Shown piece by piece: positions 69 through 16,461 of a stretch of DNA of 28,782 nucleotides (position 1 is the first letter of the stretch; each line of letters starts with the position of its first letter). Source of the DNA: a virus; IMG/VR virus record IMGVR_UViG_3300007722_002126, positions 1 to 28,782 of that record. One strand, given 5' to 3'. The position numbers and the translations under genes were made by a program. The notes beneath the pieces are model-generated. The model searched no databases. It worked only from the letters and a program-made list of their open reading frames with translations, and was not told where the DNA came from.

Positions 69-105
69 TTATGTTCTCCAAAAGTTGATGTAATTTCGGG
101 GATAC

Positions 106-176
106 TCTGGATTATAAATCCATTATTGTATCCACATAGACTGTTCTAGCTGATCTATGTGGATACTAAATAGACT
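106..176 (-). repeat. Hairpin-bearing intergenic element, copy 1
   Basis: This element is repeated at 1601-1669. Both copies share TCTGGATT, a small GGATT/AATCC hairpin (109-121 here), CCATTATTGT, a TCCAC...GTGGATAC stem, and the end ACTAAATAGACT. In this copy the main stem is a perfect 12-base inverted repeat, TATCCACATAGA (129-140) and TCTATGTGGATA (154-165), with a 13-base loop. No T-tract follows on either strand, so it is not a standard intrinsic terminator. It lies after the broken gene 187-512 and before the partial gene at 68-1, so it could be an mRNA-processing or leader element. Confidence 0.7.
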
Positions 177-186
177 TCAGTGAAAA

Positions 187-512
187 TCAAGCAGGCAATT
201 CTACTTGCTTAGTGACCGGGTTGAAGTGAGACAGGCAAAGAATCATGAATTGTTTGTTCCTCTCTGTTTGTACTGCATAATCAGCAACATGATTAGCAGC
301 ATAAATATCAACAGCATCAGCATCAACAACCAACAAACATCAGAGACAGTATTTGATTCTACTGCATCGACGATTGGAAAGAGAATAGAGTCTGATTCTG
401 TTTTGTTTTGTCCTATGAGAATTCGTCTCCAACCAGACTTACAAGGATTGAAAGATTCTATTTCTGCAAGAGAAGTAAACAGGACAGGATAAGGTGAAAA
501 CGGTGAATTCAT
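187..512 (-). pseudogene. Frameshifted copy of the Ala-rich gene
   Basis: This is the second copy of the gene at 718-1341. From ATG 512 (AAGGAG 10 bases upstream) the N-terminal ~58 residues match it: ..CKSGWRRILIGQNKTESDS.. against ..CWSGQKHILMGQNKTEPDS.., through SDVCWLL. The frame then runs into MLMLLIFMLLIM and stops at 243. In the adjacent frame the sequence continues as VDADAVDIYAANHVADYAVQ and then TERNKQFMILCLSHFNPVTK to a stop at 187-189, matching the end of the intact copy. The middle ~100 codons of the intact gene are missing. The junction falls where TTGTTG and GTTGATGCT can align, which fits an out-of-frame recombination deletion. A truncated 89-aa product ending in a hydrophobic tail could still be made. 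Confidence 0.8.
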
Positions 513-526
513 GATCAGATAGCTCC

Positions 527-721
527 TTAGTTAAGAAATTCAATTGCATTGTAATACTGACCGTAACAAACAGGTGCAAATGCTTGAAAGTAAGTAAACG
601 GGTCAACTACAGGAAAAGCAGTTGCAAGTAATTGATAAGCATCTTCTGCTGTATCATGCGAAGAAAACACTAGCAGTGAAGAAGTATTAGAATGTGGATG
701 TTGAACTTGAGTGAATATCAT
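527..721 (-). CDS. Small protein, duplicated family, copy 2 (64 aa)
   Basis: Unrecognised. The product is clearly homologous to the 65-aa protein at 1354-1551. Both start MIFTQVQHPH, share SLLVF.SHD.AEDAYQLL in the middle, and end YGQY.NAIEFLN. Its ATG overlaps the stop of the Ala-rich gene upstream (ATGA at 721-718), so the two are translationally coupled. The conserved ends with a drifted centre show that both copies have been under protein-level selection. There is no membrane segment or signal peptide. The pairing with the Ala-rich gene in both cassettes suggests a joint role, which is unknown. Confidence 0.75.
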   Translation of the reverse strand: MIFTQVQHPHSNTSSLLVFSSHDTAEDAYQLLATAFPVVDPFTYFQAFAPVCYGQYYNAIEFLN

Positions 722-1341
722 GCCGGAATCTCGACGCGATTAGTGATCGGATTGAAATGGGACAAACAGAGAATCATAAATTGTTTATTCTTTTCTGTTT
801 GTACTGCATGAGCAGCATCAGCAGCATGAGCAGCATTAACATTAGCAGCAGCAGCAGAATAATTAGCATCAACAGTTTTAGCATAAACAACATTAGCAGC
901 AGCAGCATCAGCAGCATCAGCAGCATCAGCAGCATCAGCAGCATGAGCAGCATAATAAGTAGCAGCATCAGCAGCAACAGCAACATCAGCAGCAGCAGCA
1001 TAATTAGCAACATCAGCAGCAGCAGCATAATTAGCAACATAAGTAGCAGCATCAGCAGCACGCCTGCTATAGACATTATCTAAATGACTCACTGAATCTG
1101 CGCAAAGTCTTGCAAACTTTACTGCAATTTGTATTTCTGTTTTCCTTTTCTTCAACAACCAACAAACATCAGAAATACTGTTTGACTTTACTGCATCGAT
1201 GATTGGAAACAAAACAGAATCAGGCTCTGTTTTGTTTTGTCCCATGAGAATGTGTTTCTGACCAGACCAACAGGGCTTGAAAGAAAAGATTTCGTCGAGC
1301 GAAGTAAGCAGGACAGGATGATTGGAAGAAAGTGTATTCAT
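718..1341 (-). CDS. Ala-rich repeat protein, intact copy (207 aa)
   Basis: The N-terminal half (about 1-90) contains a FKPCWSG motif, then SDVCWLLKKRKTEIQIAVKFA and RLCADSVSHL. The second half (about 92-178) is low-complexity Ala with Asp, Tyr and Asn, including AADAADAADAADAA. The last 30 residues return to ordinary sequence (EKNKQFMILCLSHFNPITNR). This architecture of a FxPC..G segment, a 'FA..CA..V.HL' helix, a long Ala-rich helix and a short tail resembles Ala-rich phage and prophage proteins often named 'putative immunity protein'. That is a family resemblance from memory, not a search result. The start ATG has AGGAAA 10 bases upstream. The repeat is encoded by a 9-base unit and is likely unstable. 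Confidence 0.75.
   Translation of the reverse strand: MNTLSSNHPVLLTSLDEIFSFKPCWSGQKHILMGQNKTEPDSVLFPIIDAVKSNSISDVCWLLKKRKTEIQIAVKFARLCADSVSHLDNVYSRRAADAATYVANYAAAADVANYAAAADVAVAADAATYYAAHAADAADAADAADAAAANVVYAKTVDANYSAAAANVNAAHAADAAHAVQTEKNKQFMILCLSHFNPITNRVEIPA
901..954. repeat. 9-base tandem repeat (AGCAGCATC) inside the Ala-rich gene
   Basis: There are six consecutive 9-mers: four AGCAGCATC followed by AGCAGCATG and AGCAGCATA. On the coding minus strand the unit reads GATGCTGCT and encodes Asp-Ala-Ala. Degenerate units continue on both sides from about 808 to 1062. The unit length is a multiple of three, so slippage would change protein length without breaking the frame. The copy at 187-512 has lost most of this tract. 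Confidence 0.9.
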
Positions 1342-1353
1342 GATAGGGATTTC

Positions 1354-1551
1354 CTAGTTAAGAAATTCAATTGCGTTGAAATACTGACCGTAAGAAGCCG
1401 TAGCAAATAGTTGAAAACGAGAATATGGGTCAACTACGGGAACTGCGGCAGCAACAAGCAATTGATAAGCATCTTCTGCTGCATCATGTGAAGGAAACAC
1501 TAGCAGAGAAGAATTCAATCTGTGCGGATGTTGAACTTGAGTGAATATCAT
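1354..1551 (-). CDS. Small protein, duplicated family, copy 1 (65 aa)
   Basis: This is a homologue of the 64-aa protein at 527-721. It begins MIFTQVQHPHRLNSSLLVFP, followed by HDAAEDAYQLL, and ends YGQYFNAIEFLN. It is the first gene of the cassette, 12 bases before the Ala-rich gene, and lies about 50 bases downstream of the intergenic element at 1601-1669. The ribosome site is weak (CCAGAG about 10 bases upstream). The function is unknown. The product is soluble with no recognisable motif. Confidence 0.7.
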   Translation of the reverse strand: MIFTQVQHPHRLNSSLLVFPSHDAAEDAYQLLVAAAVPVVDPYSRFQLFATASYGQYFNAIEFLN

Positions 1552-1600
1552 GATGTAGACTCTGGTAAGGAAAACATGGGTTGAGTGATTGTCAGGGTAA

Positions 1601-1669
1601 TCTGGATTGATAATCCATTATTGTGTCCACGAGAATAATTGAATGATTCAGGTGGATACTAAATAGACT
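1601..1669 (-). repeat. Hairpin-bearing intergenic element, copy 2
   Basis: This is the second copy of the 106-176 element. GGATT/AATCC again forms the small hairpin. The main stem is GTGTCCAC (1623-1630) against GTGGATAC (1652-1659), with one G/T pair, while the loop differs completely from copy 1. The flanks TCTGGATT and ACTAAATAGACT are conserved. It sits directly after the zinc-ribbon gene (stop at 1687) and ahead of the duplicated cassette, the same arrangement as copy 1. Confidence 0.7.
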
Positions 1670-1686
1670 AGCAGAGTGATCCGGGA

Positions 1687-2341: not shown

Positions 2342-2491
2342 TCAGACGGGGTGCCGATAAGCTTGGTAGTAACTGAACAGCATTTTGCTCAGTTTAGTTC
2401 TATCTCCGCCACATTCATGCTGCAAACAGAGATCAACACAAGCTTGTGTCCACTTGTATTGTCCGAATATGACCCATTTAGTATCGCTCAT
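2342..2491 (-). CDS. Hypothetical protein (49 aa)
   Basis: The reading frame starts MSDTKWVIFGQYKWTQACVD and ends SYYQAYRHPV. It is preceded by AAAGGAAACTAGAGTC, which shares the AGGAAACTA leader with the next two genes. Cys18, Cys22 and Cys27 with a His25 lie close together, but they do not make a standard metal motif. It is the first gene after the minus-strand promoter-like TATAAT at 2534-2529, about 38 bases upstream of the ATG. Its function is unknown. Confidence 0.7.
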   Translation of the reverse strand: MSDTKWVIFGQYKWTQACVDLCLQHECGGDRTKLSKMLFSYYQAYRHPV

Positions 2492-2524
2492 GACTCTAGT
2501 TTCCTTTGCTTGTTTAGAATTAAT

Positions 2525-2560
2525 AATTATTATAACTAGACCGTCAGACTGCTAGACTAA
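2525..2560 (-). promoter_or_regulatory. Left inverted-repeat arm with promoter-like TATAAT
   Basis: On the minus strand this arm ends in TTATAATAATT (the -10-like TATAAT is 2534-2529), about 38 bases before the first small gene. No TTGACA-like box lies 16-18 bases upstream. That space holds GTCTAGCA and GTCTGACG, repeats related to the 8-mer in the opposite arm (2858-2893). An activator or a phage-specific mechanism could substitute for the -35 box. The arm matches the opposite one at 31 of 36 positions as an inverted repeat. Confidence 0.5.
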
Positions 2561-2605
2561 CATGCCGCGCGCCCCCGCGTCAATGGGTCGCTCGAGTTGA
2601 TCTAT

Positions 2606-2655
2606 ACTGTGCATATATCTAGACTGTGCATATATCTAGACTATAGGCTATCTAG
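2606..2655. repeat. 17-base tandem repeats in AT-rich non-coding DNA
   Basis: ACTGTGCATATATCTAG occurs twice with no gap (2606-2622 and 2623-2639), followed by an imperfect third unit, ACTATAGGCTATCTAG (2640-2655). The stretch 2492-2956 has no gene. Besides these repeats it holds an inverted pair (CTATAGGCTATCTAGA at 2641-2656 and TCTAGATAGCCCATAG at 2692-2707, 15 of 16 complementary) and TGCTATCTAC twice near 2792 and 2810. The density of iterated AT-rich motifs fits an origin or a control region. Confidence 0.8.
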
Positions 2656-2750
2656 ACTATACATGTTTGCACTCATATAGATCATGTTAGTTCTAGATAG
2701 CCCATAGTGCTTAGTGTATGTTAGGGGTATCTAAAAATTCCAATAGAAAC

Positions 2751-2789
2751 ACCCCTATATATATACACTACATGTATATATATAGGGGT
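2751..2789. repeat. Perfect 17-base palindrome with 5-base loop
   Basis: ACCCCTATATATATACA (2751-2767) and TGTATATATATAGGGGT (2773-2789) are exact reverse complements around CTACA. The alternating TA core and GC clamp could extrude as a cruciform or form a long RNA hairpin. A further AGGGGTATCT lies at about 2723. No T-tract follows, so it is not an ordinary terminator. Confidence 0.85.
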
Positions 2790-2857
2790 AATGCTATCTA
2801 CGGGATAAGTGCTATCTACTGATTGGACGAGCTCCTTCTGGGCCTGTCGTGGGTCCA

Positions 2858-2893
2858 TTAGTCTGACGGTCTGACGGTCTGGTTACAATAATT
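2858..2893 (+). promoter_or_regulatory. Right inverted-repeat arm with GTCTGACG iterons
   Basis: The arm reads TTA, GTCTGACG twice, GTCTGG, then TTACAATAATT. TACAAT at 2884-2889 is -10-like and points right. It is the inverted partner of 2525-2560. All five differences between the two arms are transitions. Transcription from here would run at once into the hairpin at 2891-2937, so protein binding sites are as likely as a second promoter. Confidence 0.5.
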
Positions 2894-2937
2894 CTTAAAT
2901 ACTGCACACCCGAATTTGGTGTGCAGGGATTAAGAAT
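2891..2937 (-). terminator. Two-part hairpin after the 216-aa gene
   Basis: CTGCACACC (2902-2910) pairs perfectly with GGTGTGCAG (2918-2926). Beyond a 3-by-3 interior loop, ATTCTTAA (2891-2898) pairs with TTAAGAAT (2930-2937). It begins 20 bases after the stop of the minus-strand gene ending at 2957. On the minus strand the inner stem is followed by TATTTAAG, a poor U-tract, so termination may be partial. It also overlaps the end of the right inverted-repeat arm. Confidence 0.5.
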
Positions 2938-2956
2938 CTAATCGTAGGCTTCTATC

Positions 2957-3607
2957 CTACAGCTCGAGCAGTTCAGCAACAGGACGGGGCTTTTCCATGC
3001 TGTCGAGTCGAGCAGTGAGTTTGACACTGATTTCATCCGCTTCCGATGCCAACTCGATAGCCTTACGGCAACCGATGATCTGCTTCTTATCGAGAACTGT
3101 CTTTCCACCGGCCAGCATGGAAAGCACTTCGCGGTAAACTTTGAGATGCCCTTTGATGACAGGGGAATCGACATCCTCAAGTTGAAGTTTCTCGGCAAAG
3201 ACAACAGAAAGGTTCTCAGCCACTTGACTATCAAACCACGACACTATCCTGTCTTTGGTGATCCTGTCACCGGCGGCCTCAGCGGCCATGAAAGAGATGA
3301 GTGCATCGACGCTAATATCCGCGTCGATAACCATATCCAATTGACCGTCGGCAGACTCATACAAACTTTTGATGAGGGAGTCCTGAGCATTTTCCAACAT
3401 GGCCGTGATGTATGGTTCCAACTTGCCCATGTTTTCCTGCACATGGCCCTTGTCGATGAACGGGACACTGACGGCAACACTTGCATACTTGACTGGATTG
3501 GTCTTGCTGGGCTTGTACAAGACCCGTGCAAGCCGCTGGCCTGACAATGCGGCAGATTTACCGGCAATAAAAGGGAAGAGGGTGTGGATAGTTGAAACGA
3601 GTGACAT
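2957..3607 (-). CDS. Conserved-looking phage protein (216 aa), unknown function
   Basis: From ATG 3607 the product starts MSLVSTIHTLFPFIAGKSAA. An upstream in-frame TTG at 3619 is an alternative start; neither has a clear ribosome site. The product is soluble and mostly helical, with KYASVAVSVPFIDKGHV near residue 40, DRITKDRIVSWFDSQVAENL near 115, and MLAGGKTVLDKKQ near 160. The pattern recalls hypothetical proteins seen in other podovirus early regions, but I cannot name it. Base composition differs from the late genes: I counted 62 G+C of 120 bases at 3001-3120 against 24 of 60 at 5101-5160. The gene may have arrived separately or be under different codon selection. Confidence 0.8.
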   Translation of the reverse strand: MSLVSTIHTLFPFIAGKSAALSGQRLARVLYKPSKTNPVKYASVAVSVPFIDKGHVQENMGKLEPYITAMLENAQDSLIKSLYESADGQLDMVIDADISVDALISFMAAEAAGDRITKDRIVSWFDSQVAENLSVVFAEKLQLEDVDSPVIKGHLKVYREVLSMLAGGKTVLDKKQIIGCRKAIELASEADEISVKLTARLDSMEKPRPVAELLEL

Positions 3608-3739
3608 ACATGCTTTCAATACGGGGCTAGCCCGCGTTATGGAAACTGATTAAGCCTGTCAGCTAACCTAAATCTAGTTAAAACAAACGGTCAACAGACA
3701 CTACCTATATAGCAGTCCGCATGCCAACCCCAAAAAAGT

Positions 3740-3854
3740 CAATAGAATCAACAACTTAGCGCATATGTAACAATTTCCACCCTGCTCAGTGTAAGACAAT
3801 TCGACATCTCGATATTTCACAATGTGAAAACACCAATAGAATCAATGGGTTAGC
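3740..3854. repeat. Spaced direct repeat upstream of the late promoter
   Basis: CAATAGAATCAA, four variable bases, then TTAGC occurs at 3740-3760 and again at 3834-3854. The second copy ends 13 bases before the -35 box at 3868. A -10-like GACAAT (3795-3800) lies 55 bases after the start of the first copy, and TATAAT lies 56 bases after the start of the second. Conserved bases around a fixed spacer look like an activator or repressor site. The gene-free stretch 3608-4263 also contains the other control elements listed below. Confidence 0.65.
3815..3829. promoter_or_regulatory. 15-base palindrome, operator-like
   Basis: TTTCACA and TGTGAAA flank a single central A, making a perfect odd palindrome just before the second direct repeat and 39 bases before the -35 box. 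Its size and position suit a dimeric regulator. No cognate regulator gene was recognised in the window. Confidence 0.5.
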
Positions 3855-3867
3855 AGTGATATCTCCC

Positions 3868-3895
3868 TTGTTACAATGTGTGAATGAACTATAAT
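3868..3895 (+). promoter_or_regulatory. Sigma70-like promoter for the packaging genes
   Basis: TTGTTA (3868-3873), a 16-base spacer and TATAAT (3890-3895) make the best promoter in the control region. It points to the small-terminase gene. The expected start near 3902 gives a leader of about 360 bases, which carries the elements at 3958-4243. Confidence 0.6.
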
Positions 3896-3946
3896 GCCTT
3901 TACACTATGTAACCTGCACTATATTGCATATATGCCAACCGATGCC

Positions 3947-4018
3947 CACTGGCGGCCAGTGCGAATGAGAGTATAAATGAGAGTGTAAATGAGAACACGA
4001 ATCATTCTCATTCGCACT
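3947..4018 (+). promoter_or_regulatory. Leader stem-loops with iterated AATGAGA
   Basis: CACTGG-CGG-CCAGTG (3947-3961) is a small palindrome. AGTGCGAATGAGA (3958-3970) and TCTCATTCGCACT (4006-4018) are a perfect 13-base inverted repeat. Between them AATGAGA recurs in 12-base steps (AATGAGAGTATA, AATGAGAGTGTA, AATGAGAACACG). Each copy could pair with the single TCTCATT, so mutually exclusive hairpins of different size are possible in the transcript. It could equally be an array of protein sites. Confidence 0.6.
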
Positions 4019-4036
4019 ACTGTATGGATTTTCCCA

Positions 4037-4054
4037 CCCCCAGGGGACTTTTTT
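4037..4054 (+). terminator. Weak U-tract hairpin in the leader
   Basis: CCCC (4037-4040) and GGGG (4043-4046) are followed by AC and six Ts (4049-4054). The loop is too tight for all four pairs, so the stem is short. It lies 19 bases after the 3958-4018 inverted repeat, a possible attenuator. Confidence 0.3.
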
Positions 4055-4156
4055 GGGTTTTTGTAGCCGCTCTATCCTAAACAACCTCTAAGATTTTACT
4101 AAACTTTTTTGAGTGTCCTTGTGATTCATATTTGTTATACCTGTAATTCACTATCC

Positions 4157-4178
4157 CCGACAGTTCGGAAACTTTTTT
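4157..4178 (+). terminator. Second weak U-tract hairpin in the leader
   Basis: CCGA (4157-4160) pairs with TCGG (4165-4168) around CAGT. Four bases later come six Ts (4173-4178). The stem is only 4 base pairs, so it is at best a partial terminator ahead of the small-terminase gene. Confidence 0.3.
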
Positions 4179-4190
4179 ATGTCATAATCA

Positions 4191-4243
4191 CAGCAGTCTA
4201 TCCAGCAGTCTATCCAGCAGTTTATCAATCACAGCAGTTTATC
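4191..4243. repeat. Four 12-base repeats before terS, candidate pac site
   Basis: CAGCAGTCTATC occurs at 4191-4202 and 4203-4214, and CAGCAGTTTATC at 4215-4226 and, after a 5-base gap, at 4232-4243. The last unit ends 20 bases before the small-terminase start. In headful-packaging phages the small terminase binds iterated sites in or near its own gene, so a pac or autoregulatory site is plausible. This is inferred from position only. Confidence 0.6.
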
Positions 4244-4263
4244 CTTCTTTCCTTGTTTATATT

Positions 4264-4809
4264 ATGACTGAAAATACTTCTCTTCAAATCCAAAACTTGT
4301 CTTCTACAGAATCCAGGGCTTTAGAGCTTTTGGGGGCTGGAGTTGGGCCGGAACAAACCGCAAGTGCGCTTGGATTGTCAGTTTCACGAATTTCTCAGCT
4401 TTTGTCGGATGAGAATTTTTCCACCCTTGTAGCAGAAAAGAGGTTTAACAATCTCTTATCTCACAATAAAAGAGACAACAAAGCAGATCAACTTGAAGAT
4501 GTTTTATTGGATAAGCTTGAAAACATTATTCCGCACTTATATAAGCCGTTTGAACTCATTCGTGCATATCAAACAATAAACTCTGCAAAAAGACGCGGCC
4601 AAAGCGCTCCGGAATCTCTTGCACAGCAGCATACGATAATTCAGCTTACAATTCCGGTACAAATTGTGCAGCATTTTCAAACAAACGCAAAAAATCAAGT
4701 CATCAAAGCTGGTCAACAAGATCTTCTTACTATACAGTCAGGTAAAATGAAAGACTTGGTAGTTGATATAACAGCTGTAGTTGTACCAAACAATTCTCAG
4801 TCCGGATAA
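4264..4809 (+). CDS. terS: Terminase small subunit (181 aa)
   Basis: The product would recognise concatemeric phage DNA and bring it to the large subunit for packaging. Residues about 14-50 form a helix-turn-helix (ESRALELLGAGVGPEQTASA, then LGLSVSRISQLL), followed by a helical oligomerisation region (about 60-110) and a tail predicted as beta strands (IIQLTIPVQIVQHF onward) that could contact the ATPase. The size, the DNA-binding fold and the position two genes before the large terminase agree with the call. The ATG has no Shine-Dalgarno: the 20 bases upstream are pyrimidine-rich. Other HTH regulators are possible but less likely in this place. Confidence 0.8.
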   Translation: MTENTSLQIQNLSSTESRALELLGAGVGPEQTASALGLSVSRISQLLSDENFSTLVAEKRFNNLLSHNKRDNKADQLEDVLLDKLENIIPHLYKPFELIRAYQTINSAKRRGQSAPESLAQQHTIIQLTIPVQIVQHFQTNAKNQVIKAGQQDLLTIQSGKMKDLVVDITAVVVPNNSQSG

Positions 4810-4814
4810 ACATC

Positions 4815-4967
4815 ATGTCTGCAATCACTTTTATTCATATGAAACAACTTGAAAAAGCAACCCAACTTGTTCAAAAACAAGAGCAGTTAATTGCACGAAA
4901 TAAAGAAGCGGCTCGCGTGCACTTGCTTGCCATGAAAACTCTTTTAGCTAAGAGACCTATTTATTAA
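4815..4967 (+). CDS. Small helical protein between terminase genes (50 aa)
   Basis: The reading frame starts MSAITFIHMKQLEKATQLVQ and ends AMKTLLAKRPIY. It begins 5 bases after terS and ends 16 bases before terL. It is strongly helical and basic (Lys, Gln and Arg rich), possibly a short coiled coil. The ribosome site is weak (GGAT 8 bases upstream). The fit between the terminase genes supports it as real. The function is unknown; an accessory packaging or DNA-binding role is only a guess. Confidence 0.65.
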   Translation: MSAITFIHMKQLEKATQLVQKQEQLIARNKEAARVHLLAMKTLLAKRPIY

Positions 4968-4983
4968 AGCAAAACCATAAATA

Positions 4984-6561
4984 ATGACAAAGCTTAATGT
5001 AAATACAGATCTTTCTAAGGCGCTAGAGTTAGAGCCGTCTTCAAGCGAATCTGCTCCTGCCGAATCTACTATTGAAGGCTCATTTAACTTAGCAGAAATC
5101 CAAGAACTAGCCAAGACTTCTTTAGATTTCCTGGCTGCTCTTGCATTGCCATCAATTTTTCGTTACTTTTTTCCTGACGTATTTCAACAGATTTGGGCTT
5201 GGCTTTTATCATACATTCACAAAGAGCGAGACTTCTCTCAGCTTGCTATTGGACTTCCCCGAGGTTTTAGTAAAACTACTTTTGCAAAAATTTTTCTGCT
5301 TTATGTAATTCTTTTTACTAAACGCACCTTCATATTAATCTGCGCACACAGTGAAAAGAAAGCAGTGGCAATCTTATCCGATGTGTGCGACTTTTTAGAT
5401 GAGCCGAACATTAAAAAAGCTTTTGGAGATTGGAGAATAGGGCTTGAAACTGATCAAGCTGTAATGAAAAAATTCGGCTTTCGAGGTCGAAATATAATTC
5501 TTTGTGCAGGCACTGTAGAAACTGTACGAGGATTAAATGTAAAACACCAGCGTCCGGACGTAATGTTATTTGATGACATTCAATCTAGACAAGACGCTGA
5601 TTCTGATGTAGTGTCTCTTCAATTAGAGACAGATCTTATTGGTACAGCTATGAAGGCTAAATCGCCTCATGGATGTCTCTTCATCTTTATTGGGAATATG
5701 TATCCCACAAAGTGGAGTATTCTTCGGCGTTTAAAATCTAACCCTACTTGGATGAAATTCATTGCCGGCGGAATTATTCAACGCAGTGACGGTACATTTG
5801 AATCTCTTTGGGAAGAACTTCAACCTCTTGAGCAGCTTAAAAAAGAATTTCAAAATGATCTTTCTTCGGGTCGCCCGGAGGTTTTCTATGCAGAGGTATT
5901 GAATGATGAAAACGCTTCTGTCAATTTGCTTCTAGACACGTCTAAAATTCCTCAGTGTCCTTATGAAGAAGAAATTGCATCTGGATCAATTCACCAAGGT
6001 AATTTTATAGTAATTGATCCATCAAATGATAAAGCTAACTCAGACGCTGTATCAATTGGGTACTTTGAAATTTGGGATGGAAAAGCAGTATGCCGAGAAA
6101 TAAAAGAAGGTCGACTGTCCCCTGGTGATTCTATTGATGAATCACTTAAACTATGCTTCAAATACAACTGCGCCCTAGTGGCTTGCGAGTCAAACGCTTA
6201 TCAATACTCTCTCCTTTATTGGTTTAATTTTATTTGTCAGCAGCGCGGTATTATTGGAATTCACTGTGTTGACATCTATTCAGGTCAGAGATCAAAAAAT
6301 TCAAGAATTTTAGAGATGTTTAAAGGACTGCTTGCTAAAGAACAATATCTTACTCAGGCAGTTCGTCAACAGGTGTTTTCACAAATCAATTCATTTAATG
6401 CCACAAAAACAAACAATGTGGACGGTATTTTAGATTTAATTACCTATGCCCCAAAAGTACTGGAATTGTATGGAAGTCTTATTGCATCTTTGCTCACAAT
6501 TGAAATGCAAGAGTTTAAAGCAATTCCAGTGCTCTCTGTATTAGAAACCTCTTCCTTTTAA
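4984..6561 (+). CDS. terL: Terminase large subunit (525 aa)
   Basis: This is the packaging motor ATPase and nuclease. The Walker A-like P-loop is LPRGFSKTT (residues 91-99), a form common in podovirus terminases. Walker B is VMLFDDI (193-199), and FIFIGN (233-238) is the coupling motif. The RNase H-like nuclease follows, with FIVIDPS (Asp345), VACESN (Glu402) and DGILDLITYAP (Asp480/Asp484) as likely metal ligands. The length is typical and all motifs are present, so the protein should be active. It acts at the portal vertex with the small subunit. The ATG has no clear Shine-Dalgarno (CAAAACCATAAATA precedes it), which may keep its level low. Confidence 0.95.
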   Translation: MTKLNVNTDLSKALELEPSSSESAPAESTIEGSFNLAEIQELAKTSLDFLAALALPSIFRYFFPDVFQQIWAWLLSYIHKERDFSQLAIGLPRGFSKTTFAKIFLLYVILFTKRTFILICAHSEKKAVAILSDVCDFLDEPNIKKAFGDWRIGLETDQAVMKKFGFRGRNIILCAGTVETVRGLNVKHQRPDVMLFDDIQSRQDADSDVVSLQLETDLIGTAMKAKSPHGCLFIFIGNMYPTKWSILRRLKSNPTWMKFIAGGIIQRSDGTFESLWEELQPLEQLKKEFQNDLSSGRPEVFYAEVLNDENASVNLLLDTSKIPQCPYEEEIASGSIHQGNFIVIDPSNDKANSDAVSIGYFEIWDGKAVCREIKEGRLSPGDSIDESLKLCFKYNCALVACESNAYQYSLLYWFNFICQQRGIIGIHCVDIYSGQRSKNSRILEMFKGLLAKEQYLTQAVRQQVFSQINSFNATKTNNVDGILDLITYAPKVLELYGSLIASLLTIEMQEFKAIPVLSVLETSSF

Positions 6562-6580
6562 TTATCTAGACAATTCCAAT

Positions 6581-7783
6581 ATGGATTCTGCTAAAAGTAT
6601 TGAAGCTGCCCATAAAGCTAGATTAGCAGATAAAATAGCTAAGCAAAACATTGAAGCGGCTGCTACTCAAACTAGGCTAAAAGATTTTGCCCGCGGAACG
6701 CTTAAAGCTGTTACCACAGATATTCCTGGATTTATTGCAGATATTGTAGACAAGATTGTTGGAGACACAAACTATCTAGGAGAAAAAGATCGATCTTCTC
6801 AGATGTTTGAAAAGATTACAGGATCTAAAAGCTCTGGGTCAAGCCAAGAAAAACTTGGTGGCTTATTTTCTCCTCAAGGTCTTGGAACAGGAGCAAAAGC
6901 TATAATTATTCCTGCTCTTGCAATAAAATCTTTTAAAGAGATTAGAGAAGCTAGCAAAGCATTGAAATCAGGTGCAGACGCTCAAGAAGTATATTCTAAA
7001 ACAGGCATATTCTCAGCGCCTCTGGTAGAAGATTTGAGAGCGGTTATTTCAGACAAAGACGTAAAGCTCAATGATATTTTCGAGCTTAACAAAGGTTGGC
7101 CATCAAAAGATGTTAGTCTAGATACGTGGACAGATACTCCGCTATCTAGACTTATTGATCACCCAGAATTATTTTCTAAGGTACCTGGATCTGCTGATAT
7201 TCCTGTAAGGGGAGCCTTCAGAGCTAATGATGCTTCCTTTCATCCTGACAGTGGACATATTATGATAGGACCTACAAATACTGAAAAAGAATTTATTTCT
7301 AATTTATTGCACGAAGTTCAACACTCAATGCAACATACTTTTGACATGCCTTCGGGCGGCAACCCAAACAACTTTTTAAATAATCCCAAGAAATTAGAGG
7401 ATGCATTGTCTATGTTAGTGAGTGCAAGAGATACTCTTAAACAGCAATGGAAAAACACTTCAGGAGTAGAAGCTAAAAAGGCTGTAGATGACAGGCGCCA
7501 GGAAATAACTAATGCATATCATAAACTAAGTGCTGTTAAAGATGACAGCCTTAAAAACTATCAAAGACTTGCTGGAGAAGCAGAGGCCAGGGCTGTAGAA
7601 GGTATGTTTAATTCAAAAGATTACACTACAGTTCCTAACTCATCTAAATTTTACGTAGAAGAAAATATTTCAAACCTCATTTTAGACAAACATGCGGTAG
7701 GCAAATTGGACGACGATCCAGTGATTAAAGCAATTATTGACGCAGCAGTCAGAGCAAAAATTGTAAGAGACGCCATTAGGTAA
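6581..7783 (+). CDS. Predicted zincin-like protein, LPD23-like (400 aa)
   Basis: The C-terminal half carries FISNLLHEVQHSMQHTF with a zinc-binding HExxH (HEVQH, residues 244-248), followed by YQRLAGEAEARAVEG with Glu/Arg in GEAEAR (332-337). This pair matches the polyvalent-protein domain LPD23, a predicted metallopeptidase fold, as I remember it. The N-terminal half is helical (TTDIPGFIADIVDKIVGDTN, then a hydrophobic AIIIPALAI) and looks like the linkers of phage polyvalent or ejected proteins. It sits between terL and the portal, where some phages place head-maturation genes, so a capsid protease or an ejected effector are both possible. The ribosome site is poor, implying low copy number. 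Confidence 0.7.
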   Translation: MDSAKSIEAAHKARLADKIAKQNIEAAATQTRLKDFARGTLKAVTTDIPGFIADIVDKIVGDTNYLGEKDRSSQMFEKITGSKSSGSSQEKLGGLFSPQGLGTGAKAIIIPALAIKSFKEIREASKALKSGADAQEVYSKTGIFSAPLVEDLRAVISDKDVKLNDIFELNKGWPSKDVSLDTWTDTPLSRLIDHPELFSKVPGSADIPVRGAFRANDASFHPDSGHIMIGPTNTEKEFISNLLHEVQHSMQHTFDMPSGGNPNNFLNNPKKLEDALSMLVSARDTLKQQWKNTSGVEAKKAVDDRRQEITNAYHKLSAVKDDSLKNYQRLAGEAEARAVEGMFNSKDYTTVPNSSKFYVEENISNLILDKHAVGKLDDDPVIKAIIDAAVRAKIVRDAIR

Positions 7784-7825
7784 AAGCTGTTCTCCATTCT
7801 TAAAAATAACTAGGACATTCCACAC

Positions 7826-9850
7826 ATGGCCGCAACCCAAACATTTCCACTTTCAAAAACTACCCAAGAGGGGTTGATTCAATATCACAGAACTGCATCA
7901 ACTTTAGTTGATAGGCAGTGGAATATTCGCGAACAGATGCGTCAGATTGATCTAGCGTATATTCGTGAACAGGACTACACAATAGAAAATCGACGGGCGC
8001 AAATTGCAAATGCATATGGCGACTCGAATAAAATCCAGAATGTCACAATTCCAATTATCAAGCCTCAAGTTCAAGCAGCTAAAGCTTACCAAGCCGCTAT
8101 ATTTTTAACTGACTATCCTATTTTTGGGGTGGTTTCAGATCCTCGATTCATTTCTGCGGCTAAACAAATGCAAGCAGTAATAGAAGAGAATTCTGTTCGC
8201 GGAGCTTGGGCTAGAGAGCTTCTATTGTTTTTTGGGGATGGCTTTAAATATAACCTTTCAGCTATTGAAGTTGCTTGGCACAGTGTGGCCACAGCAGCTT
8301 TAGAAACTGATCTCTCTTTAAAAGCAGGGGCAGAAGCTAGGGTTAAAGAGGTTATTTGGCAAGGTAATTGTCTTAAACGCTGGGATCCATATAATACATA
8401 TTTTGATTCCCGATGCGAGGCGTATGATATTCCTACTAAAGGAGAGTTCTGTGGACGTACAGAGATCATGTCTCGCACAGCACTAAAAACTTTCATTAAT
8501 TCTCTTTCAAATAAAATTATTGAAAATGTAATACCTGCATTTTCTTCTCCTTCTCTTCTTAATGTGGGAGATGCTGGAGCTTATGGATCTTCTTACTATT
8601 TACCTGCCATAAATCCAAATGCTCTTATGGATCCAGATACTCTAGGATCGTTTGATTGGCTTGGGTGGGTTGGAATGAAAAACCAAACTCTAGGATCAAA
8701 CCAGATTAATTATCGAGGCGTATACGAAGTCTCTACGGAGTATGTCAGAATAATTCCATCTGATTTTCAACTTCGAGTTCCTGCTCCCAATACTCCTCAG
8801 GTTTGGAAGCTAATTATTGTAAATCACTCCGTGATTATTTATGCAGAGCGACAAACAAATGCGCACGAAAAAATCCCAGTATTTTTTGGTTGCCCTGCTG
8901 AAGATGGATTGAGTTATCAAACAAAATCTTTGGCTTCGGATGCACTGCCTTTTCAGCAGGTTTCATCCGCACTAATGAATTCAGTTCTTGCAGCGCGCAG
9001 GCGTTCTGTAACTGACAGGCTTCTTTATGATCCTTCACGAGTTTCTGAAGCTCACATTAATTCTCCCAATCCTTCAGCTAAAATTCCTGTGCGTCCTGCT
9101 GCTTATGGAAAGCCTGTAGGAGAATCAGTTTATCAGTTTCCATATCGAGATGATCAATCTGGTCTTATTATGCAGGAAATTCAAAGCTTGGCAGGTTTTG
9201 CAAGTACTCTTGGTGGGCAGAATCCTGCTCGGCAGGGTCAATTTGTTAAAGGAAATAAAACTGACGGCCAGTGGTCGTCCACAATGTCTAATGCTACTTC
9301 TCAGGATCAAATGACTGCACTTCTATATGAAGCTCAGGTGTTTACTCCAATGAAAGAAGTATTAAAATTAAACATGCTTCAGTACCAGGGGGCCGGATCA
9401 ATCTACTCTCCTTCTCAAAGAAAAGATGTTCAGATCGATCCTTTAGAGCTTCGTAAAGCTGTATTGAATTTCAAAGTTACGGATGGATTACTTCCTTCTG
9501 AGAAAGTAATCTCGTCTGATGCCTTAAAAATGGGAATGCAGGTTATTGGAACTTCTCAAGCCATTGCAGGAGCATACAATATTGGTCCGCTGTTTTCTTA
9601 TATTATGAAAGCGGAAAATGTTGATCTTAGCCCTTTTGAAAAATCTCCTGCTCAACAATCATATGAACAAGCTTTAGGAGCTTGGAACGCAGTAGCAATG
9701 AAAGCAGCTGAAAAAGGAGTGGAAATCTCAACTCCAATGCCTACTCCCCAACAATTTGGATATGATCCAAATATGCAAAATCCTGAAGCACAAGGACAGG
9801 CACAACTTTCTGGAAGCTCAAACGGAGGTCTTACAAATGGCGCAACTTAA
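7826..9850 (+). CDS. Portal protein (674 aa)
   Basis: This forms the dodecameric ring through which DNA enters and leaves the head. The N-terminal region (WNIREQMRQIDLAYIREQDY) and the block KRWDPYNTYFDSRCEAYDIP, then TKGEFCGRTEIMSRTALK, are typical of podovirus portals of this class, as are the length and the position after the terminase. The C-terminus is Gln/Gly/Asn rich and probably flexible. The start has AGGA about 10 bases upstream. Its end overlaps the start of the 101-aa gene by 14 bases. The call rests on sequence pattern and gene order. Confidence 0.88.
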   Translation: MAATQTFPLSKTTQEGLIQYHRTASTLVDRQWNIREQMRQIDLAYIREQDYTIENRRAQIANAYGDSNKIQNVTIPIIKPQVQAAKAYQAAIFLTDYPIFGVVSDPRFISAAKQMQAVIEENSVRGAWARELLLFFGDGFKYNLSAIEVAWHSVATAALETDLSLKAGAEARVKEVIWQGNCLKRWDPYNTYFDSRCEAYDIPTKGEFCGRTEIMSRTALKTFINSLSNKIIENVIPAFSSPSLLNVGDAGAYGSSYYLPAINPNALMDPDTLGSFDWLGWVGMKNQTLGSNQINYRGVYEVSTEYVRIIPSDFQLRVPAPNTPQVWKLIIVNHSVIIYAERQTNAHEKIPVFFGCPAEDGLSYQTKSLASDALPFQQVSSALMNSVLAARRRSVTDRLLYDPSRVSEAHINSPNPSAKIPVRPAAYGKPVGESVYQFPYRDDQSGLIMQEIQSLAGFASTLGGQNPARQGQFVKGNKTDGQWSSTMSNATSQDQMTALLYEAQVFTPMKEVLKLNMLQYQGAGSIYSPSQRKDVQIDPLELRKAVLNFKVTDGLLPSEKVISSDALKMGMQVIGTSQAIAGAYNIGPLFSYIMKAENVDLSPFEKSPAQQSYEQALGAWNAVAMKAAEKGVEISTPMPTPQQFGYDPNMQNPEAQGQAQLSGSSNGGLTNGAT

Positions 9851-10142
9851 TCCTGAGTCTTTGTTTCAATCTTGGATTATTTCTCCTGAAGAATTTGTAC
9901 AAGGAACACTTCTTTCAGGGGTTCAAAAGCAGGTAATCCAAAATCAAATTTGTGTTCTAGCCTCTGAGAAATGCCTTCTTCAATTTGATCCTGCGCACCC
10001 TAATCAATTTATTCAACGAGAGGCAGAGTTGCAAGGATCAATTAAATCTTTACAGTATCTTATTCAACTGTCTTCTGAAGCGGAAACACAATTTGATCCG
10101 GGCGCTCAGATGATTGTAATTCAAACTCCCTTGGATCATTAA
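9837..10142 (+). CDS. Hypothetical head-module protein (101 aa)
   Basis: I chose ATG 9837 because GGAGG (9824-9828) lies 8 bases upstream, inside the end of the portal gene. An earlier ATG in the same frame at 9756 has no such site. The product begins MAQLNPESLFQSWIISPEEF and is helical with VIQNQICVLASEKCLLQFDP in the middle. It has no known motif. Overlap with the portal gene and an 18-base gap to the scaffold gene suggest an assembly factor, but the family was not recognised. Confidence 0.75.
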   Translation: MAQLNPESLFQSWIISPEEFVQGTLLSGVQKQVIQNQICVLASEKCLLQFDPAHPNQFIQREAELQGSIKSLQYLIQLSSEAETQFDPGAQMIVIQTPLDH

Positions 10143-10160
10143 ATCTCTCAGGAAACTATC

Positions 10161-10907
10161 ATGTCATTTATGCAAAAAATCTTTGGCCCAGCCGCTACTC
10201 CTGCTGCGCCGCCTGCTCCTCCTGGAATTACAAATAACCTTAATACAAACGAGGCTCCGCTTTCTCCAAGTTCTTCAGAACAAACTGCTCCTAATGGAGT
10301 TGTACCTCCTAATGCGGCAGAAGGCCCTATTAAACAATCCCCAGATGACAAGTTTGCTACTTTATGGGAACCTGTTAAACAGGATGAAAGCAAAAATCCT
10401 TCTGCAGAATCTGGATTAAGCCCTGAAAAGATGATGGAAGCAGCCGGAAAGGTTGATTTCACAAAAGTATTAGATCAGGAAAGTCTCAAGAAAATATCTG
10501 CTGGAGGAGAAGAAGCTGTACAAGCTCTTGCCCAACTCCTGAATAAAACTGCTCAAACAGTTTATGGACAATCTACAGTAGTTGCCCAAAAATTGGTTGA
10601 AACAGCAGTAAACAAAGCCAAGATGGAATTTGCAAATCAAGTTCCTTCGATGGTAAAAAAACAACAAATGCGGGATGGATTACATTCTCAAAGTGCCGCA
10701 TTTAAAGACCCCTCAGTAGCTCCAGTTATTTCGGCAGTTCAGTCGATGCTTGAGCAAAAATTCCCCAGCGCAACTGCAACTGAATTAAATGACATGGCCA
10801 AAGAGTGGATGGTTTCTGCAGCTGGAAAATTTAATCCAGCTAAGCCAGAATCTAAAACCTCATCCAGAGAAGAAGATTGGGATGCATATGCGATGGGTAA
10901 AACTTAA
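10161..10907 (+). CDS. Capsid scaffolding protein (248 aa)
   Basis: This is a low-complexity, Pro/Ala/Ser-rich N-terminus (APPAPPG and following), a helical middle rich in Gln, Glu and Lys (residues about 90-175), and a short acidic C-terminus (SSREEDWDAYAMGKT). That is the usual make-up of phage scaffolds, which co-assemble with the capsid protein and then leave. The position between portal and major capsid gene supports it. The leader CTCTCAGGAAACTATC gives an AGGAA ribosome site. Scaffolds diverge quickly, so the call is by composition and context. Confidence 0.75.
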   Translation: MSFMQKIFGPAATPAAPPAPPGITNNLNTNEAPLSPSSSEQTAPNGVVPPNAAEGPIKQSPDDKFATLWEPVKQDESKNPSAESGLSPEKMMEAAGKVDFTKVLDQESLKKISAGGEEAVQALAQLLNKTAQTVYGQSTVVAQKLVETAVNKAKMEFANQVPSMVKKQQMRDGLHSQSAAFKDPSVAPVISAVQSMLEQKFPSATATELNDMAKEWMVSAAGKFNPAKPESKTSSREEDWDAYAMGKT

Positions 10908-10947
10908 TTCTTTCTGTGTTTATTAATACTACTTCAAGGAATACATC

Positions 10948-11352
10948 ATGGGCTTTCTTCGTGCTTTAGTTTCTAGTGCAGCTACTCTTGTTCGTCCTGC
11001 TAGGGCAGGTGATGGTTTGTTGGCGTTTTTTACTCCAGTAGTTGTTACGGCCGATGCTGCTGCAACTCTGACCGTAGCACAACTAGCTGGCGGATTAATT
11101 CAATTTACTGGATTTACCGCAGGTCGAGTTCTTACCACGCCTACGGCAGTTTTATTGCTTGCAGCAAATCCAGATATGGATGTTGGTGATAGTTTTACTG
11201 TAATTATTTCAGTGACTACTGCTTTTGCTGCCACTTATTCTGCTGGGGTTGGTGTAACTTTGGCCGGCCGCGCAACTACGGTTGCCAACACTTATTCTAT
11301 TATTGTACTGACTAAACTGTCCTCCACCACAGTGGAATGGCGAGTTCTTTAA
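10948..11352 (+). CDS. Small beta-rich virion protein, possible head decoration (134 aa)
   Basis: The product is Ala/Thr/Val rich with predicted beta strands throughout. It has a stretch DVGDSFTVIISVTTAFAATY followed by GVGVTLAGRATT and an end VLTKLSSTTVEWRVL. This resembles a beta domain widespread in large-phage virion proteins, often annotated as head fibre, decoration or simply structural. It lies directly before the major capsid gene, as many decoration proteins do. The leader CAAGGAATACATC supplies a good ribosome site, in keeping with a high copy number. A small capsid-surface protein is the best guess. Confidence 0.6.
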   Translation: MGFLRALVSSAATLVRPARAGDGLLAFFTPVVVTADAAATLTVAQLAGGLIQFTGFTAGRVLTTPTAVLLLAANPDMDVGDSFTVIISVTTAFAATYSAGVGVTLAGRATTVANTYSIIVLTKLSSTTVEWRVL

Positions 11353-11402
11353 TTTTCATTCACTTTGTTTAAACCTGTTTTTATTATTTAAAGGAATTTT
11401 AA

Positions 11403-12623
11403 ATGAGTACCGGTATTTTTAGCACTGGCGGCTTTACTCAAGATCTTGCAGTAAAGTCATTTGCGTCGATGATTACTCGACTCATGCCAAATGGCCAAGC
11501 GCCGCTATTTGGCCTGACTTCGATGTTGCCTACTGAAACTGCTGCACAAGTTGATCACGGGTTTTTTACAAAAACCATGTTGTTTCCTATGTTTAATTTG
11601 GACGCAGCAGTTGCCAATGCCACTGACACTACTTTTACTGTAGCAACTACAGCAGATTTGGCTTCAGGTATGTTGATGCGCGCGGAATCTACTGGTGAAG
11701 TTGTTATCATCAATTCGATTATTTCTGCAACTCAACTTTCAGTTACTCGAGGAGTTGGTTCTACTCCAGGAGCTGTTGCAGACAATGTGAATTTTTACCA
11801 AGTTGGTAATGCTTTTGAAGAATCTTCGGTTCGTCCGAATGCGCTTCAAATTAATCCTGTTCGCATTACAAACTTCACGCAAATCTTTCGTAATACGTGG
11901 GCACTTTCTGGCTCTGCTCAAGCTACTCAAGTTATTGCAGGCGATACGACAGTTGCAGAGAATCGAATGGACTGTGCGTCTTTCCACGCTGCTGATATTG
12001 AAAAAGCTCTGTTCTTTGGTACTAAATCTCAAGGCACTCGTAATGGCCAGCCATTCCGTACAATGGATGGTTTGCGTAATATCATTCTTAATCCTGCCTA
12101 CTATCCTGCTAGTTATGGCGGTGTTGTAAATAATACAACGGCTGGCGGTACTACAAACTTTACGCAGCTTGAGGCTGCTTTGGACCCTACTTTTAATCAG
12201 GCTACTGATCCGAAAGTTGGTAATGAGCGAGTTCTATTTGTAGGAGGCGGAGCACGAAAAGTTATCAATAATATTGGTCGCTTGAATTCTACGTATTACA
12301 TTCAAAACGGCGCTACTAGTTACGGCCTGCAATTTGGTCAATTTAATATTGCTCGCGGTAGTTTCCGAATGATTGAACACCCGCTGTTTAATTCTAACGC
12401 CGACTGGAGTAAATACGCCATTGCAGTTGACTTGTCTACTTTCCGCGTCGCTTATTTAGGGGGCCGCAAAACTATGAAACAAGAATTTAATATGAGCGGT
12501 ACAGCAGTGGATCAAGGTATTGATGCTGTTGGAGGCACTCTTACAACTGAATTGACTTGTGTTGTTAAGAACCCTCCTGCAAATGCAATTATTACGAACT
12601 TGACCGCAGCGGCTGTTGGTTAA
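11403..12623 (+). CDS. Major capsid protein, SU10/DUF5309-like (406 aa)
   Basis: This should build the icosahedral shell with an HK97-type fold. SSVRPNALQINPVRITNFTQ, AENRMDCASFHAADIEKALF and the later GSFRMIEHPLF and AVDLSTFRVAYLGGR blocks match the pattern of the SU10 major head protein family. Between about residues 70 and 125 a Thr/Val-rich stretch (TDTTFTVATTADLASGMLMR onward) looks like the small inserted beta domain seen in that family. The start has AAAGGAATTTTAA upstream. It is followed by a stable hairpin at 12650-12676. There is no sign of an N-terminal delta domain or cleavage region. Confidence 0.88.
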   Translation: MSTGIFSTGGFTQDLAVKSFASMITRLMPNGQAPLFGLTSMLPTETAAQVDHGFFTKTMLFPMFNLDAAVANATDTTFTVATTADLASGMLMRAESTGEVVIINSIISATQLSVTRGVGSTPGAVADNVNFYQVGNAFEESSVRPNALQINPVRITNFTQIFRNTWALSGSAQATQVIAGDTTVAENRMDCASFHAADIEKALFFGTKSQGTRNGQPFRTMDGLRNIILNPAYYPASYGGVVNNTTAGGTTNFTQLEAALDPTFNQATDPKVGNERVLFVGGGARKVINNIGRLNSTYYIQNGATSYGLQFGQFNIARGSFRMIEHPLFNSNADWSKYAIAVDLSTFRVAYLGGRKTMKQEFNMSGTAVDQGIDAVGGTLTTELTCVVKNPPANAIITNLTAAAVG

Positions 12624-12649
12624 GTTCCTCCTGAGGGAATCAGTTTTCT

Positions 12650-12676
12650 GGTATAGTTCTGATAAAAAACTATACC
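12650..12676 (+). other. Stable hairpin after the capsid gene
   Basis: GGTATAGTT (12650-12658) pairs with AACTATACC (12668-12676) around a 9-base A-rich loop. There is no T-tract after it, so it is unlikely to be a full terminator. It could protect the 3' end of the capsid message or act as a processing site. The next gene has its own AAGGAAA ribosome site. Confidence 0.55.
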
Positions 12677-12704
12677 TTCCATAAATCCTCAGAAGGAAAT
12701 TATT

Positions 12705-13130
12705 ATGAATGAAAATCTTGACTCTCCAGAAGCTGAAAAGCGTCTGTATAAATCTACCTTTAAGTTCGGTTCATTTGTTTTTCCAAATGGCCACAAGGCG
12801 GATTTTAAAGGAGGCATGTTTGCAACAGATAACCCGTACTATATTCAAGAGCTTGATAAAGAAATAGCTGGCGGACATCCTCAAATGTATATTGATCCAA
12901 ATGCTCGCACAATTACAGCCTCTCAAGAGAATCCAATGCTAGCATTAAAAAGGAAATTCTACGAAGAATTTCAAGCTGAGCTTCAAGCAAATCTGAATCC
13001 TAAGAATGATATGGGTACTTCAGAACAAAGTAAACTTAATGCGGCATCTACTACAAGTATTGCCCCAGTAGCTCTTGGTGGAGATGGTACTTCAACGTCC
13101 GCTCGTCTAATTGCTTTAGCCGGGAAGTAA
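12705..13130 (+). CDS. Head-associated protein downstream of capsid (141 aa)
   Basis: Residues 20-70 contain FGSFVFPNGHKADFKGGMFA, then YYIQELDKEIAGGHPQMYID, a pattern I recall from small proteins next to SU10-type capsid genes in other podoviruses. The rest is helical (MLALKRKFYEEFQAELQANL) and then Ser/Thr/Gly-rich. There is no enzymatic motif. Lying between capsid and adaptor, it is probably a minor head protein. The family has no settled function that I know of. Confidence 0.7.
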   Translation: MNENLDSPEAEKRLYKSTFKFGSFVFPNGHKADFKGGMFATDNPYYIQELDKEIAGGHPQMYIDPNARTITASQENPMLALKRKFYEEFQAELQANLNPKNDMGTSEQSKLNAASTTSIAPVALGGDGTSTSARLIALAGK

Positions 13131-13133
13131 AAA

Positions 13134-13724
13134 ATGACGCTGACTGAACTTATTTCTGAAGTTTATACACTAACTAATCGCCCCGATTTAGTGGCTCAAA
13201 CTTCGCTTGCTGTTCGGTCAGCTACCTTAAAACTTCATCAAATGGATTTTTTCTACAAAGATTTATATGAGACTGGAGTTGCTTTTTCTTCTGCAGAATA
13301 TTTACAAACTATAGAATATCGTACCCTTCTTCCTCGATATCGCGCATTTAAATACTTAAAGAAAACAAACTTAGCCGGCACGGAGCAGGGAGTTGTGTTT
13401 TCTTTAATTATTCCAGACAATGTTTTAGACGACTATCAATTAAACAGAGAGAATGTTTGTTATGTAGCAGGGGACGCAATTCAAATTCGTTCCTCTACGC
13501 AACTTCAATATGTAATATTTGGTTGTTATATTAATCCAGACGTTGTTACTGCAACTTACAGCTCTTGGATTGCATTAGATCATCCTTTTGCAATTATTTT
13601 TGAAGCAGCCGCCTCTGTATTTAAGGCTGTTGGAGATACAGAACAATTTGCAGCGTACACTGGATTAGCTCTACAGTTTGCAACAGAAGTTCGCACATCT
13701 GGCATTTTAGCTAACGGATACTAG
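13134..13724 (+). CDS. Head-tail adaptor protein (196 aa)
   Basis: This probably forms the ring under the portal. The start MTLTELISEVYTLTNRPDLV, a central PRYRAFKYLKK and the C-terminal block SSWIALDHPFAIIFEAAASV followed by FKAVGDTEQFAAYTGLALQF give the helical layout common to podovirus adaptors (P22 gp4-like). The start codon has GGGAAG 6 bases upstream, inside the end of the preceding gene. It lies 3 bases after that gene and 8 bases before the first fibre gene. The assignment is by pattern and order. Confidence 0.7.
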   Translation: MTLTELISEVYTLTNRPDLVAQTSLAVRSATLKLHQMDFFYKDLYETGVAFSSAEYLQTIEYRTLLPRYRAFKYLKKTNLAGTEQGVVFSLIIPDNVLDDYQLNRENVCYVAGDAIQIRSSTQLQYVIFGCYINPDVVTATYSSWIALDHPFAIIFEAAASVFKAVGDTEQFAAYTGLALQFATEVRTSGILANGY

Positions 13725-13732
13725 GAGTCAAT

Positions 13733-15121
13733 GTGACTGCATCTATTTGGAATCCAGGAAGTAATATACCCTCAGGAGGGTCGTCAGTAACTCGAGCCCA
13801 AGAGTCTCAAACTATAGTAGCAGGCCAAACTGTCGTAGCTTTTACTACGCTTGAGTATTTGCCTGGTACAAATTCTTTATACATTTTTATTGATGGATTC
13901 TTTTTCTCTGATTATGTACAAACAAACAGTACTTCAATTACACTAAGCAGTTCTTTTTTATTCCCAGTAAATCTAGTAGCAATCGCCGGAATTCCCTTAA
14001 ACTTTGGTCTTGCAGGCGATTCTGTTTCTTATATAGCAGCCGGAGCAAATTCCGTTGCTAGAGATATTCAAACAAAAGTTCGTGAAACTTCGTGGATTTC
14101 TATAGAAGACAAAGGCGCACTTGAAAACATAGACTGCTCCACATCGCTTCAGTCTGCAATAAATTCTGGATTTCATACAGAAATTCCTCCTGGCAGTTGG
14201 ACAGCTTCTTCAGCCGCTTCCATTGTTGGAAATAAAGTACTTCGCGCTAGAGCTGGGGCTGTACTTAGCGGAGCTGGTTTATCTGCAGCAGGATTTTTTA
14301 CTGGGGCTGCCGGAGCCGAACAACAAGTTCATTATAATTCTAGTAGAGCTACCGACGGAGCCTCTTTCTACTTTAGGAGAGAATCAAACTATGTCGGAGG
14401 AACTCCAGGATTTGTAAATTCTGGCGTACTTATACATTCATTTGTACGAAACTCTGCAAGCACTTCATTTGAATGGGGCCTTACTTCCACTTTATTTAAC
14501 TCCAGTAATTCAGGAGAGAACGTAGGAATTTATGCTCAAGCCCACAAATTAGCTCTTGGAGCTACTTGGGCTTTGGTATCTGAAATATATGATTACAGTG
14601 CAAGTAATCCTACTACCTCTGTTGTCTGTGCTGAGTTTGATATTACAGCAAACGGCACAGATGACACAGCTCCTTTTGGTGCTCGTGTTGGTTTAGATAT
14701 TGTTCTTAGAAATAGAGATCCCGCAGGTGCTGCGATTACAGCTTCTTGGGGAGTTCGTATTCAAGGAGATACGGGAGCTGTAGTAAAACGAGGGTATTCC
14801 TTTGTTCCCGGAGTTTCTACGACGTATGCTTTTGACGCTTCCACCGCTACAGTTGTATCTGCTGCGTTTAAAATGGACGTCAATCAACCAATTATATTTA
14901 AAGCAGACGACACAAAAAAGCTGTTCTATGATGGCACTGGACTAAAATATGAAACCAGTGGAACTCTTTTAGTTCGCTTTAACGATTCCGGACTTACGCA
15001 ACTTGGAGTAAATAGTACGGCGGCGGGAACTCCTGCCTCTTTTGTTGCTAATAGAACCATTAGAATTCAGCAAAATGATGGCACTATTTTATACCTTCCT
15101 GCTATGTTAGCCACCTGGTAA
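13733..15121 (+). CDS. Tail fibre/spike protein 1 (462 aa)
   Basis: The start is GTG 13733, with GGAG 5 bases upstream; the ATG at 13731 is followed at once by TGA. The N-terminal ~100 residues (TIVAGQTVVAFTTLEYLPGT, SLYIFIDGFFFSDYVQTNST) look like a podovirus fibre attachment domain. The rest is beta-rich, with an AFKMDVNQPIIFKADDTKKL segment before the tip. The last residues (GTPASFVANR..., GTILYLPAMLATW) match the end of the next protein. It should contact the host surface. No catalytic residues are evident, so an adhesin is more likely than an enzyme. Confidence 0.75.
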   Translation: MTASIWNPGSNIPSGGSSVTRAQESQTIVAGQTVVAFTTLEYLPGTNSLYIFIDGFFFSDYVQTNSTSITLSSSFLFPVNLVAIAGIPLNFGLAGDSVSYIAAGANSVARDIQTKVRETSWISIEDKGALENIDCSTSLQSAINSGFHTEIPPGSWTASSAASIVGNKVLRARAGAVLSGAGLSAAGFFTGAAGAEQQVHYNSSRATDGASFYFRRESNYVGGTPGFVNSGVLIHSFVRNSASTSFEWGLTSTLFNSSNSGENVGIYAQAHKLALGATWALVSEIYDYSASNPTTSVVCAEFDITANGTDDTAPFGARVGLDIVLRNRDPAGAAITASWGVRIQGDTGAVVKRGYSFVPGVSTTYAFDASTATVVSAAFKMDVNQPIIFKADDTKKLFYDGTGLKYETSGTLLVRFNDSGLTQLGVNSTAAGTPASFVANRTIRIQQNDGTILYLPAMLATW

Positions 15122-15126
15122 AGATT

Positions 15127-16230: not shown

Positions 16231-16266
16231 GATTTTGTTAGTGTTTTACAACCCTCAGGAATTAAA

Positions 16267-16455: not shown

Positions 16456-16461
16456 TTTTTC

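Follow-up and report, generated by a model that had tools for sequence, protein, structure and literature searches.

Tandem duplication of a two-gene phage cassette, probably followed by different losses in two sister strains

The cassette described here lies near the start of a 28,782-nucleotide stretch of viral DNA (IMG/VR virus record IMGVR_UViG_3300007722_002126, positions 1–28,782; hereafter the window). The minus-strand gene order within positions 1–1700 is B1, A1, B2 and the remnant of A2. B1 (1354–1551) and B2 (527–721) are intact small orphan genes with open reading frames of 65 and 64 amino acids, respectively. A1 (718–1341) is intact and encodes 207 amino acids, consisting of an N-terminal domain (N-domain), an Ala-rich tract and a short C-terminus; it was recognized by its open reading frame and by its match to PHROG 18326. 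The A2 remnant (187–512) is a broken copy of A with a length of 326 nt. The stop codon of A1 and the start codon of B2 overlap by 4 nt (ATGA). A sequence-only reading of the window had described a two-gene pair at 1551–718 that is repeated at 721–187, with the small gene intact in both copies; the coordinates and reading frames are as it claimed. The two copies are related by five collinear DNA repeat pairs, far above chance, with identities of 74–97%: 174–325/705–856 (74%), 323–515/1152–1344 (79%), 528–627/1355–1454 (79%), 618–683/1448–1513 (88%) and 693–722/1523–1552 (97%). The B1 and B2 proteins are 77% identical, with a dN/dS of 0.36.

Only one other carrier of the cassette, IMGVR_UViG_3300020213_000069 (L004), was found in searches with B, A, a flanking gene and alignments of A and B. 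It has the order A1 (175 amino acids), B (64 amino acids) and an intact A2 (233 amino acids) between the same hairpin elements as in the window. Its single B is the orthologue of B2. L004 lacks B1, but the leader of B1 is kept up to the joint and runs straight into A1. The presence of a whole A2 at the same site shows that A2 was once whole and that the lesion is specific to the window allele.

In both strains the cassette as a whole is flanked by copies of a two-helix hairpin, with fold z values of −2.8 to −6.0. In the window, one copy is located upstream of B1 (1600–1671, minus strand; L004:2301–2372) and the other between A2 and the next gene (105–178, minus strand; fold z −5.0; L004:3861–3934). 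The outer helix is invariant and the inner helix has two pairs changed on both sides, as is seen in the second element. The exact core occurs in just two copies per contig. Rfam contained no match above chance level, and the exact 16-base pattern was found in four contigs besides L004, none of which aligns to the window at an E value of 1e-8. The bracketing hairpin may serve as an element of RNA processing or control. Inverted and direct repeats (2520–2560 and 2858–2898; 2743–2797; 2599–2664) are also clustered between the cassette block and the gene at 2957–3619; they are partly conserved in L004 and resemble an origin or a control region. In L004, the cassette is located beside other small genes and a gene that, from reading its sequence, we take to be helicase-like; the description of the cassette as early fits this position.

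A1 matches PHROG 18326 with an E value of 4.9e-12 (hmmscan), the two A genes of L004 match with E values of 9.9e-9 and 3.9e-8, and the N-terminal part of the window A2, which contains no repeat, matches with an E value of 1.9e-4. A profile–profile comparison of the N-domain gave a match (98.1%, E value 1.1e-13, 81 columns) with proteins of phages PPpW-3, 1.154.O and 367.14 and of two environmental phages. On the strength of these matches, A is assigned as a divergent member of PHROG 18326, a widespread phage family of uncharacterised proteins with 519 candidate stretches in IMG/VR, as well as 13 in bacterial genome contigs. The family layout consists of a domain of ∼95 amino acids, then an Ala-rich tract that varies greatly in length and finally a short charged end; this layout is found in A1, in both A genes of L004 and in most of the ∼95 other loci surveyed. 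Similar to Pseudomonas phage PPpW-3 ORF-54 and Burkholderia phage Bcep176 gp36, A carries the N-domain motif TLNEIR..PC..GW..LL..K.K.D...SN...D..W, which precedes a variable Ala-rich tract and a C-terminus that is short and charged. In contrast to other members, A1 and A2 are divergent (E values of 4.9e-12 to 3.9e-8), have repeats rich in Tyr/Asn/Asp rather than Trp/Arg/Asp and alternate with the orphan gene B. A literature search returned nothing on the A family or on a recorded function, and an AlphaFold2 prediction of A1 gave no usable model (mean pLDDT 37).

PHROG 18326 genes are also present in tandem in L062 (four copies), L080 and L025 (two copies each), and broken members are present in L078 (with an in-frame TGA), L055 (a fragment, with a second copy on the same contig) and L103 (frame lost near the C-terminus), although these are mostly from metagenome contigs and some could be errors. 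The four copies in L062 (2337–4528) are arranged head to tail, each with its own Ala-rich tract. A further suspected broken member, L007, proved to be intact and only mis-annotated.

B gave no match in PHROGs, Pfam, NCBIfam, PADLOC or phage records and only chance-level matches in the PDB, and no relatives beyond the window and L004 were found in the collections searched. The AlphaFold2 model of B is poor to fair (pLDDT 67), and the predicted fold had no match in the PDB below an E value of 1. A also had no match among the defence families of PADLOC. Our guess is that A and B are dispensable early host-interaction proteins, the dosage of which can matter.

A megablast search among phage records found no near relative of the window. 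Two further contigs (L111 and L112), found by a terminase search, are 98% identical to window positions 3660–16564. The end of L004 and the start of L111/L112 share an overlap of exactly 127 nt, a k-mer length typical of assemblers, and L004 and L112 derive from one sample. Very probably, therefore, L004 represents the early half of a strain belonging to the phage species of the window, with L112 as its presumed late half. Late single genes of the window differ from those of L112/L111 by a dS of only 0.013–0.025, whereas the cassette orthologues have a dS of 0.10–0.24 and the flanking gene at 2957–3619 a dS of 0.95 (dN 0.054) relative to L004, which argues that the early region is mosaic between strains. 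Window positions 2486–3786 are 86% identical to L004 at the DNA level, compared with 98% in the late region; the change occurs near 3660. This is also where the sister contigs break, a pattern that looks as though one late half were common to several early alleles.

The lesion in A2 is defined by comparison with the intact A2 of L004. The N-terminal part (326–512, minus strand, ∼62 codons) is native, in frame and orthologous to L004 A2. At ∼324–328 the reading frame departs from the Ala frame; the deletion junction there shows ∼4 nt of possible microhomology (TGTT). Beyond it, frame 0, which comprises 62–63 native residues, continues with LMLMLLIFMLLIMLLIMQYKQRGTNNS to a TGA stop; this out-of-frame extension (243–325) encodes a hydrophobic tail of 26 residues (Kyte–Doolittle mean of 3.1 over 19 residues). 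The 3′ remnant (187–325) overlaps the tail in another frame, which holds VVDADAVDIYAANHVADYAVQTERNKQFMILCLSHFNPVTKQVELPA and is open in the original Ala-rich frame to the normal stop at 187, as the sequence-only reading had noted; it would be untranslated unless started anew. The length of A2 (326 nt) compares with 624 nt for A1 and 702 nt for L004 A2, and both differences leave a remainder of 1 when divided by 3. About 300–376 nt were lost out of frame, in agreement with the loss of about 100 codons proposed earlier. Of the two breakpoints, the left one falls within the unique N-domain and the right one within the Ala-rich tract. Programmed frameshifting to rejoin A2 was considered and rejected: TGTTGGTTGTTGATGCTG offers no slippery heptamer, and both frames are consistent with a deletion relative to the intact orthologue.

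The window A2 keeps about 62 of the 92 N-domain residues, short of a full-length PHROG 18326 domain, and its frame is broken. It is preceded by an AAGGAG ribosome-binding site, stronger than in the paralogues, from which a short product may be made. With one third of the conserved domain missing and a hydrophobic out-of-frame tail, A2 has the features of a pseudogene, and each allele retains at least one intact A and at least one intact B; we therefore regard the window A2 as most likely a pseudogene, with a product that is presumably non-functional. The earlier description of a copy caught in the middle of decay is borne out as to decay, which the whole A2 at the same site in L004 leaves standing, but 'in the middle' is too strong, because the open C-terminal frame has just 29 codons plus some repeat. 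The 3′ remnant is 90% identical in DNA to the 3′ end of L004 A2, and the nine differences in 84 positions (three, two and four at codon positions 1, 2 and 3) are too few to tell continuing selection from recent loss.

Synonymous distances give an order of events. The paralogues differ by a dS of 0.43 (B1–B2) and 0.40–0.48 (A1–A2), compared with orthologue values between the window and L004 of 0.18 for B2–B (dN/dS 0.26), 0.24 for A1 (62 codons) and 0.10 for A2. The larger paralogue values place the duplication before the split of the two alleles, and their similarity for A and B points to one duplication of a B–A unit before the alleles parted. Gene conversion blurs these dates, as the N-terminal part of A1 and the spacer before A2 look mosaic in L004. 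A 17-nt near-copy of the B start (TGATTTTCACTGAAGTC; 173–189, minus strand) is located directly after the A2 stop. In both strains the sequence there reads TGATTTTCACT(C/G)AAGTC, with one or two mismatches to the B start TGATATTCACTCAAGTC, and no other non-B site with three or fewer mismatches was found in the window or L004. This footprint marks the duplication boundary, either as the repeat that mediated the duplication or as the stub of a further B.

We therefore consider it highly probable that a B–A pair was duplicated in tandem and then suffered independent losses, of most of A2 in the window and of B1 in L004. The tandem duplication with subsequent loss in one copy put forward by the sequence-only reading is supported by the collinear repeats and by the intact A2 of L004. 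In the proposed sequence, the ancestral pair would have been duplicated before the two known early-region alleles separated, probably when a short direct repeat at the B start recombined with the 17-nt near-copy after the A stop. The presumably redundant array would then have lost parts independently in each allele: in the window an illegitimate deletion from the N-domain into the Ala-rich tract would have removed most of A2 and shifted its frame, while the sister allele would have lost B1. Such recombination has a precedent in phage T4, in which tandem segmental amplifications and deletions between homologies of 2–10 bp arise under experimental selection (PMC9391042). The cassette resembles the amplified T4 dmd–tifA segment (PMC9391042) in that a two-gene block with short homology at its ends lies in tandem and that short homologies also delimit deletions at other sites; unlike that recent and selected amplification of genes of known function, the window duplication is old and diverged, with partial losses.

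An ancestral order A–B–A, with B1 gained later by the window through copying or import, would explain why L004 has exactly this order between the same hairpins. However, B1 differs from L004 B by a dS of 0.37, near its distance from B2 (0.43), and is thus not a recent copy, and the B-start footprint after A2 fits a B–A unit; we judge this order rather unlikely. Since B1 is as distant from L004 B as from B2, loss of B1 by L004 is the simplest reading, a choice that turns on dS values from ∼44 synonymous sites and on one other known allele.

Less probable still is an assembly or sequencing artefact of the low-complexity Ala tract, the real gene being intact. The tract is repetitive, the sister-strain A2 is intact and contigs of the same phage break near the cassette region. 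Against this, the left breakpoint is in the unique N-domain outside the repeat, the longer tract of A1 was assembled, and the stretch at the junction that is shared with A1 has a length of ∼21 nt, less than would readily mislead a long-k assembler (k = 127, as implied by the L004/L112 overlap).

It is very doubtful that truncation of A2 created a new functional product, in which an N-domain fragment gained a membrane-anchor-like tail from shifted Ala codons. It does have an ATG-started open reading frame of 89 amino acids, an upstream AAGGAG that the paralogues lack and a tail with the hydropathy given above. The +1 frames of the Ala-rich tracts are open and encode hydrophobic, Leu/Met-rich sequence (774–1076, minus strand; L004:2700–2891 and 3377–3775) because Ala is nearly always encoded by GCT (45 of 46 codons in A1, compared with ∼40% in other genes), and the shifted frame of A2 is open for the same reason. 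However, about one third of the conserved N-domain is missing, no other phage seen has the truncated form, and the 13 differences in 186 positions between the N-terminal part and L004 A2 (dN/dS 0.65) are uninformative on selection. An established short N-terminal product, as the sequence-only reading had allowed, is made less likely by the intact A2 of L004 and by the truncation of the domain. Hardly credible is the further proposal of a stable N-domain fragment with a membrane anchor, in which the GCT-rich, low-complexity Ala tract is a latent transmembrane helix; if true, a single frame-shifting deletion would switch on such a helix.

The window cassette is thus best described as an old tandem duplication from which the two strains have lost different parts, an ordinary case of phage genome turnover. 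Together, the window and L004 clearly illustrate, in natural phages, how sister strains can lose different genes after a tandem duplication, with the boundary visible, and PHROG 18326, with its 519 IMG/VR candidates, is a repeat-rich family with recurrent tandem arrays and broken copies.
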